Part shown: positions 27,962 to 30,624 of the stretch, piece after piece
Position numbering within the stretch: position 1 is the first letter of the stretch
How the letters are laid out: each line of letters opens with the position of its first letter
DNA from: an uncultured Bacteroidales bacterium
Lineage (GTDB): Bacteria; Bacteroidota; Bacteroidia; Bacteroidales; Bacteroidaceae
NCBI GenBank assembly: GCA_902776455.1
Contig: CACYQI010000032.1
Coordinates: 1-32,296, forward strand
Direction: 5' to 3'
DNA length: 32,296 bases
Translations under genes and position numbers: made by a program
The notes under the pieces: model-generated
What the model was told of the DNA's origin: nothing
Databases searched by the model: none
What the model saw: the letters and a program-made list of their open reading frames with translations, nothing else

Positions 27962-28504
27962 ATGCCAGGATTATTAGGAAAGAAAATCGGAATGACTTCC
28001 GTTTTCAGTGCCGAGGGTAAGAATGTACCATGCACTGTTATCGAAGATGCCAAGGAGAAGAATACAACTGCTCCTATGATGGGCCACTTCAAGAAAGCCG
28101 GAGTAACTCCCAAGAGACACTTGGCCGAGTTCACAGGTTTCGACAAGGAACTGAATTTGGGTGACACCATCACCGTTGACATGTTTGCCGACACCGCCTT
28201 CGTCGATGTTATCGCCACCTCCAAGGGTCGCGGTTTCCAAGGCGTCGTCAAGCGTCATGGCTTCGGTGGCGTAGGCCAGACTACTCACGGTCAGGACGAC
28301 CGTCTGCGTAAGCCAGGTTCTATCGGTGCCTGCTCATATCCCGCTAAAGTCTTCAAGGGAATGCGCATGGGCGGCCAGATGGGATGCGATCGTGTGACAA
28401 CACACAACCTGCAAGTGTTAAAGGTAATTCCCGAACACAACCTCCTTCTCATCAAGGGTAGTGTTCCCGGATACAAAGGTTCAATCTTAAGCGTTATCAA
28501 GTAA
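27962..28504 (+). CDS. rplC: 50S ribosomal protein L3 with an internal in-frame deletion
   Basis: A 180-residue protein, about 25 residues shorter than the roughly 205 expected in Bacteroidales. The N-terminus ([20 protein letters not shown]) and everything from [17 protein letters not shown] to the end fit L3. After VPCTVIE the sequence jumps to [15 protein letters not shown]. The normally conserved segment beginning AGPCVVTQ and ending near LGF is absent. The missing piece is a multiple of three (about 75 nt), so the frame stays open. That segment is part of the conserved globular core, so the product would probably not assemble normally. rplB and rpsS just downstream also have deletions. 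The stop overlaps the rplD start (TAATG). Confidence 0.93.
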
Positions 28505-29133
28505 TGGAAGTAAGTGTATTGAATATCAAAGGTCAGGAGACAGGACGCAAGGTCGCTCTCAATGATGCCATTTACGCTATTGAGCCAAACGATCACGCCA
28601 TCTATCTCGACGTGAAGCTTATCATGGCTAACCAGCGCCAGGGAACAGCAAAGTCAAAGGAAAGAAGCGAAGTCAGCGGCTCAACACGCAAGCTCGGCCG
28701 CCAGAAAGGCGGTGGCGGTGCTCGTCGCGGCGACATCAACTCTCCCGTACTCGTAGGCGGTGGCCGTGTGTTCGGTCCCAAGCCTCGTGACTATAGTTTC
28801 AAGCTCAACAAGAAAGTTCGTCAGCTTGCCCGCAGGTCTGCTCTTTCGTACAAGATTCAGGAGAATGCTCTGGTCGTTGTAGAAGACTTCACTTTCGACG
28901 CACCCAAGACGAAAGCAATGGTTGAAATCTTAAATAATCTTAAAGTTTCAGACAAGAAGACACTCTTTGTTTTGCCAGGTGCAGATAAAGTTGTATATTT
29001 GTCGGCTCGAAACATCGAACGCGTTCAGGTTATGCCTGCAAATGCACTCAACACATATAGGGTTTTGGATGCAGATGTTATGGTCGTAGCTGAAAGCGCT
29101 CTCGCTGTCATCGATGGAAACTTAACCAAATAA
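28504..29133 (+). CDS. rplD: 50S ribosomal protein L4
   Basis: A 209-residue protein of normal length, colinear with Bacteroidales L4 ([59 protein letters not shown]). L4 reaches into the peptide tunnel and can repress its own operon in some bacteria. It starts at the A of the rplC stop codon, so the two are translationally coupled. No deletion is seen, in contrast to rplC and rplB. Confidence 0.97.
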
Positions 29134-29149
29134 GTAGTCGAAACAGATT

Positions 29150-29590
29150 ATGAGTTGTATCATCAAACCTCTGGTCACTGAGAAGATGACCAGCATTACA
29201 GAGAATTCATCGGTTAGCAAGACGCTGCACGCGCCCAATGCCGTAGCTGCCCAGAAGCTTGGTGCTAAGGAGGAGAAAGTGAGCTATGTTGTGAAAACTA
29301 AGCGTAAGGGTGAAGTGAAAAAGGAGAAGACAGTCTTCTCTTATACTAAGCCTGCTCGTCCCAAATATGGTTTCATTGTTAAACCCGAAGCAAACAAGAT
29401 TGAGATCAAGAAGGAGATAGAGGCACAGTACAACGTTACTGTTACCGATGTCAATACTTGTGTCTATGGCGGCAAGAACAAGAGCCGCTACACACGTTCC
29501 GGTCTCATCAAGGGACGTACCAATGCTTTCAAGAAGGCAATCGTAACCCTCAAGGAAGGCGATGTTATTGATTTTTATAGCAACATTTAA
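29150..29590 (+). CDS. rplW: 50S ribosomal protein L23 with an insertion of about 50 residues
   Basis: 146 residues, against about 96-100 in most relatives. The ends fit L23: CIIKPLVTEKMTSIT at the start, and YGFIVKPEANKIEIKKEIEA to KKAIVTLKEGDVIDFYSNI at the end. Between them, at about residues 20-71, is a Lys-rich insertion (for example VVKTKRKGEVKKEKTVFSYT) that keeps the reading frame. L23 lines the exit of the peptide tunnel. The insertion follows the helix that carries the VTEK motif, which in E. coli holds the glutamate that docks trigger factor and SRP. The insertion may be a lineage-specific extension. Codon use looks like the rest of the gene. Confidence 0.95.
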   Translation: MSCIIKPLVTEKMTSITENSSVSKTLHAPNAVAAQKLGAKEEKVSYVVKTKRKGEVKKEKTVFSYTKPARPKYGFIVKPEANKIEIKKEIEAQYNVTVTDVNTCVYGGKNKSRYTRSGLIKGRTNAFKKAIVTLKEGDVIDFYSNI

Positions 29591-29596
29591 TAGAAG

Positions 29597-30393
29597 ATGG
29601 CAGTACGTAAATTCAAGCCCACAACACCGGGCCAAAGACACAAGATTATAGGTACCTTCGAGGAAATTACTGCATCGGTACCTGAGAAGTCTCTCGTTTG
29701 CGGTAAGCGTTCTACTGGCGGTCGTAACAACACCGGCAAGATGACTGTGCGCTATATCGGTGGAGGTCACAAGCAGAAGTTCCGCTTCATTGACTTCCGA
29801 CGTGAGAAGGATGGTGTTCCCGCCGTCGTTAAGACAATCGAGTACGACTGTTCTACGCCGACGGAGAAAAGCGTTATATTATTGCTCCTAACGGACTGAA
29901 GGTGGGAGCCACTGTGATGAGTGGCGCCGAAGCAGCTCCCGAAATCGGTAATGCTCTGCCGCTGCAGAACATTCCCGTCGGTACTGTAATCCATAACATC
30001 GAGCTTCGCCCCGGCCAGGGTGCCCTGCTCGTCCGTTCTGCTGGCAACTTCGCTCAGCTGACTTCGCGCGAAGGCCGTTACTGTGTTATTAAGCTTCCCT
30101 CTGGAGAGACCCGTCAGATTCTCTCTGCCTGCAAGGCAACGGTTGGCAGCGTAGGTAACTCAGACCATGCTCTGGAAAGCTCCGGTAAGGCCGGACGTTC
30201 CCGTTGGTTGGGACGCCGCCCGCACAACCGTGGCGTTGTTATGAACCCGCACGACCATCCCATGGGTGGTGGTGAAGGTCGCCAGTCAGGTGGTCATCCT
30301 CGTTCACGCAAGGGCCTGTATGCTAAGGGACTCAAGACTCGTGCTCCCAAGAAGCAGTCCAACAAGTATATTATCGAGAGATGTAATAAGTAA
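29597..30393 (+). pseudogene. rplB: 50S ribosomal protein L2, frameshifted by an internal deletion
   Basis: The first part (29597 to 29848) encodes a normal L2 N-terminus up to [11 protein letters not shown], then shifts frame and stops at 29897-29899. From 29851 a second frame resumes L2 at [20 protein letters not shown] and continues to the normal end ([14 protein letters not shown]). The residues expected between, PNRSARIAL, are missing; the gap at 29848/29849 is about 28 nt, which is not a multiple of three. L2 is essential for the peptidyl transferase centre, so as written no functional L2 can be made. No slippery site or bypass signal could restore missing residues. Either the assembly is wrong here or an intact copy exists elsewhere. 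Confidence 0.93.
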
Positions 30394-30419
30394 ACAAAAA
30401 GTTAGCTAAGAATAAAACT

Positions 30420-30624
30420 ATGAGTCGTTCATTAAAGAAAGGTCCGTATATCGAAGTCAGCCTCGAGAAGAAAATCGTCGCTATGAATGAAAGCGGTAAG
30501 AAGAACGCACAACGGAAATAAGTTTATTCCTGTTTACGTTACAGAGAATATGGTTGGACATAAGCTGGGAGAGTTTGCTCCTACACGCAAGTTCGGTGGC
30601 CATGCTGGTAACAAGAAGAAGTAA
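30420..30624 (+). pseudogene. rpsS: 30S ribosomal protein S19, frameshifted by an internal deletion
   Basis: The gene starts normally at 30420 ([29 protein letters not shown]) but then reads AQRK and stops at 30519-30521. The rest of S19 resumes in another frame from [20 protein letters not shown] to GHAGNKKK, stop at 30622-30624. About 21 conserved residues (normally VVKTWARASMISPDFVGHT and neighbours) are missing, a gap of about 65 nt near 30506. S19 is an essential head protein of the small subunit. The gene was easy to miss because neither half is long. Same explanations as for rplB. Confidence 0.92.

Follow-up and report, generated by a model that had tools for sequence, protein, structure and literature searches.

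Local assembly errors have been described in metagenome-assembled genomes (MAGs), and in the relevant passages of Chen et al. 2020 (PMC7111523) IDBA-UD is the most suspected assembler. For the rumen, a passage of Stewart et al. 2019 (PMC6785717) gives idba_ud as the assembler of single samples and MEGAHIT as that of co-assemblies. Judging from their RUG names, three relatives used in our comparisons (L039, L046 and L080) appear to belong to that set. The locus studied here resembles the errors in those passages of Chen et al. 2020 (PMC7111523), where wrong local sequence within contigs leaves genes incomplete or incorrect. The test described there was a lack of perfect read support, whereas ours is based on the comparison of genomes.

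The window, i.e. the whole stretch of 32,296 nucleotides that was analysed, is the complete contig CACYQI010000032.1 (contig C32) of the assembly GCA_902776455.1, which comprises 3.39 Mb in 94 contigs and is 87% complete. Its S10 ribosomal cluster (27602-32239) lies at the end of the contig. When compared to the Bacteroidales S10 cluster (rpsJ-rplCDWB-rpsS-rplV-rpsC-rplP), both gene order and sequence are ordinary, but three genes carry gaps, a combination that is absent from the relatives examined. Comparison with these relatives suggests that the three gaps are very probably local errors of a metagenome assembly, present in the sequence and most likely not in the organism.

The S10 cluster and its three gaps

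The features of the cluster are listed in Table 1. As predicted, rpsJ, rplD, rplV, rpsC and rplP are all open through. The contig stops within the gene that follows rplP (32240-32296), again inside the S10 cluster; by its position this gene would be rpmC. We also considered rplW as a fourth damaged gene, since it has about 50 codons more than in the nearest relative. This was rejected, because rplW of Hoylesella enoeca has the same length and the long form therefore looks natural. At 27561-27614 there is an A+T-rich intergenic repeat, about 30-55 nt long, which has 39 further matches across the contigs of the same genome.

Table 1. Features of the S10 cluster in the window
Feature	Position	Strand	Remarks
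rpsJ	27602..27907	+	intact; 3' end lost in relative L039
shared stretch at rplC start	27946..28045	+	exact in other species; abuts rplC gap
rplC	27962..28504	+	180 aa; 75 nt missing after 28040, in frame
rplD	28504..29133	+	intact
rplW	29150..29590	+	long form, 146 aa, probably natural
rplB	29597..30393	+	28 nt missing after 29847, frame broken; open frames 29597-29899, 29902-30393
rpsS	30420..30624	+	65 nt missing after 30507, frame broken
rplV	30666..31064	+	intact
rpsC	31073..31801	+	intact
rplP	31814..32239	+	intact

Gap sizes were determined against the nearest relative, L039 (CACYYM010000001.1, MAG RUG12391). The original prediction had placed an in-frame loss of about 25 codons after VPCTVIE in rplC, and frameshifting losses of about 28 nt after IEYD in rplB and of about 65 nt after SGKKN in rpsS; all three were recovered in the alignment. 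The rplC gap amounts to exactly 25 codons and its placement is free by about 5 nt, and rpsS keeps 29 codons before the frame is lost. Five further relatives (L011, L016, L040, L041 and L042) gave the identical three gap sizes, and L012 and L013, which extend over the rplC gap only, agree on its size. The missing parts are present in the aligned relatives wherever their sequences extend that far, except where they have changes of their own, such as those that L014 and L046 carry in rplC in the same alignment. The rows of L010 and L015 were in reverse orientation, hence meaningless, and were dropped.

The window contains no N letters, and all three gaps are joined without Ns. With L039 as a stand-in for the missing letters, the microhomology is 5 nt at the rplC gap and 0-1 nt at those of rplB and rpsS. 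The clean joins and the 5 nt at rplC, as a slippage deletion might give, would fit very recent deletions that are real in some cells, of a dying or mixed lineage whose version was chosen by the assembler. However, this would need three separate lethal or near-lethal deletions within 2.5 kb, two of them with next to no microhomology, and a sample would not be expected to be dominated by such cells. We consider this explanation very unlikely.

Breakage at the rplC start in other genomes

A match to rplC was found in 94 of the 139 genomes of the genus, and in 14 of these 94 the gene is partial (this genome included in both counts). All 14 breaks fall between positions 17 and 57 of the profile, which has 202 positions. 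With spans of 600-606 nt, the full rows hide no large in-frame loss. Six of the breaks are contig ends (G013, G019, G027, G042, G068 and G092, the last with an additional full rplC copy on another contig), three are runs of Ns (G061, G063 and G064) and five are joins without Ns (G000, G035, G106, G111 and G114). The stretches lost from the other genomes differ from the one lost in the window, yet they lie at nearly the same place. The contig end of G042 even falls on the same alignment column as the start of the rplC gap, within the 5-nt freedom of its placement.

An alignment of 16 sequences shows why the rplC start breaks repeatedly. Some 90 nt that begin shortly upstream of the start codon hardly differ between species, and the breaks are located at or soon after the end of this stretch. 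It is also the most widely shared stretch of the region. In a k-mer count on both strands of 130 loci, 120 of them non-redundant, its 41-mers occur in up to 40 and its 61-mers in up to 15 of the 130 loci, and some 61-mer of it is found in 13 of the 120 non-redundant loci. An assembly problem would be expected to show up in this manner, with a single site appearing as a contig end, an N-run or a clean loss depending on the species, although in principle the recurrence of losses at the site might be read as biology too.

As a control, rplC was searched in 248 genomes of the family that are at least 98% complete, with this genome added; 245 had a match. Full length was judged by the best E-value of each genome, and values weaker than 1e-77 were counted as weak. 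Among the 244 other genomes with a match, one was weak (G302, 3.4e-58), whereas the other 243 reached 3.6e-78 or better. Three genomes had no rplC match, among them G117, which belongs to the same genus and is given as 100% complete. The contrast to the genus set supports an assembly artefact without isolating its cause, because the two sets differ in quality.

How such errors may arise can be outlined as follows. Parts of the S10 cluster are identical over 60-100 nt among related species able to share a community, and within an identical stretch the assembler would be unable to track a single species. It might then end the contig, insert Ns, or misjoin the two sides, with loss of the divergent bases beside the shared stretch, while the genes would be whole in the living cell. 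We presume that the genome is a short-read metagenome assembly and that the error arose there, in a step of the assembler. The original prediction had named a collapse of strain variants in the assembly. The assembly error is well supported, as the rplC start also breaks, in different ways, in 13 further genomes of this genus and L039 has a loss of its own; instead of strain variants alone, the explanation should probably cover related species with long stretches of identity in common. One point against an assembly artefact is that three errors within 2.5 kb are many for one contig.

The rplB and rpsS junctions and losses in relatives

At the other two junctions the evidence for an artefact, when taken alone, is weaker. 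Partial rplB genes were found in 8 of the 86 genomes with a match, this genome included. None of the other seven breaks at the site of the window: G035 has a 7-nt change and in six the piece lies at or near a contig end. As for rpsS, its junction is limited to this genome among the 139 of the genus, 80 of which have any rpsS match. Three others among these 80 have a partial rpsS; the breaks of G088 and G111 lie within or beside the part missing from the window, that of G047 does not. The site at the rplC start is thus one that breaks other assemblies as a contig end or N-run, while that in rplB is not, and for rpsS such breakage concerns G088 and G111.

The rplB gap is located inside a stretch with 61-mers common to 4 of the 120 non-redundant loci, and the rpsS gap immediately adjoins one with 61-mers common to 3 of them; the gap itself accounts in part for shared stretches that end at a junction. 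In an earlier k-mer test on 108 loci and one strand, the observed mean was attained by 1322 and 1637 of 20000 random triples, so that for rplB and rpsS k-mer sharing on this set is weak evidence. Each of the three junctions falls within a run identical to L039, of 117 (rplC), 61 (rplB) and 72 nt (rpsS), with a median run of 8. This excess of identity was clear against L039, where 31 of 5000 random triples reached it at a half-width of 30, but not against any of the five other relatives tested; rows at a half-width of 100 omit the rplC junction. Overall, the gaps appear to be located in sequence shared between genomes, and the case is strong for rplC only. Since the evidence from shared stretches is weaker for rplB and rpsS, reading these two gaps as artefacts rests mainly on the fact that they are unshared, on the lack of decay in rplB and on the company of the rplC gap.

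Several relatives carry losses of their own. L039 lacks 67 nt (at about its position 2863), comprising the rpsJ end and the spacer to rplC and matching 27882-27948 of the window, a loss that is unshared. In addition, 16 codons of rplC are lost in L046 (RUG12681), 22 codons of rplB in L080 (RUG12014) and 40 codons of rplD in L017 (G047), and L014 (G035) has 7-nt changes in both rplC and rplB. G111 (L124, G111:C44) has lost codons in rplC (about 32-58) and rpsS (about 51-69), in regions at about 2836-3367 and 5167-5365 of L124, and its rplB is whole. These cases indicate that unshared losses in the S10 cluster recur in these assemblies.

The survey of losses gave rows for 95 of 109 sequences, with minus-strand hits skipped and the set partly redundant; rplC was hit in 86, rplB in 89 and rpsS in 87. 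L079 served as reference for most proteins and is therefore intact by construction. Four other records that are isolate-like by title (L074, L086, L087 and L117) had no such loss in rplC, rplB or rpsS; L074 has frameshifts of 1-2 nt and apparent stops. Losses of 6-9 residues in rpsN, rplX ends, small insertions and single stops were set aside as minor or as natural variation in length, as were the fusA rows of L044 and L045, which lie at N-runs.

One could also imagine a specialised ribosome, with an L3 that functions without 25 residues, an L2 in two pieces and an S19 that is either truncated or restored through a frameshift. In favour of this, the loss in rplC preserves the frame, the latter part of rplB has an open frame that carries a GTG at 29902, and G111 likewise has losses in rplC and rpsS. 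However, rpsS is out of frame after its 29 codons, none of the 79 other genomes in which rpsS was matched has its junction, and the losses of G111 touch two of the three genes, with extents other than those of the window. The same set of losses was found in none of the relatives examined. As had been proposed, this is the least likely explanation, and we regard it as extremely improbable. Just as improbable would be a real lineage that tolerates the shortened L3, split L2 and truncated S19 and in which these were fixed too recently for the remaining sequence to drift.

Other copies, decay and the use of these genes

The original prediction had offered a second, intact S10 cluster as a likely explanation and a search for other rplB, rplC and rpsS copies as a check. 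This expectation was not borne out: a DNA search of the 94 contigs revealed no second S10 cluster, and profile searches for L2, L3 and S19 matched only the pieces in the window. The absence of a second copy is no proof, because the assembly is incomplete. A search of a plasmid collection returned one record only, a Phocaeicola plasmid that matched over 104 nt.

To judge decay, codon differences to L039 were counted wherever the two sequences align in frame. There were 40 synonymous and 8 non-synonymous differences in rplC and 52 and 2 in rplB, compared to 49 and 7 in rpsC and 23 and 2 in rplV. The counts for rpsS (3 and 2) are too few to judge. As most of the differences in rplC and rplB are synonymous, these two genes show no decay. 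Genes that had long been dead would not look like this; a very recent loss would be compatible.

This bears on the idea that the cluster is a real damaged copy, with an intact one in the unassembled part of the genome. The incompleteness of the assembly leaves room for such a copy. On the other hand, no second match to any of the three genes is present in the contigs, rplC and rplB are free of decay, and a damaged copy would leave unexplained why contigs of other genomes end at the same rplC site. A hidden intact cluster therefore has only a slim chance of being correct, and we favour local assembly errors.

We see these results mainly as a warning. Universal ribosomal genes serve for trees and completeness scores, yet they are often partial or absent in the genomes of this genus: no match was found for rplC in 45, for rplB in 53 and for rpsS in 59 of the 139 genomes. 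The shared stretch at the rplC start is a recurrent breakage point.

Elsewhere in the window, a tandem 12-nt repeat (22730-22850) is located within a minus-strand open frame (22616-23698), which may resemble a PD-(D/E)XK transposase-type gene. Furthermore, a CAT-family acetyltransferase-like protein (10941-11558) adjoins a glycoside hydrolase family 59 protein (11610-13712).
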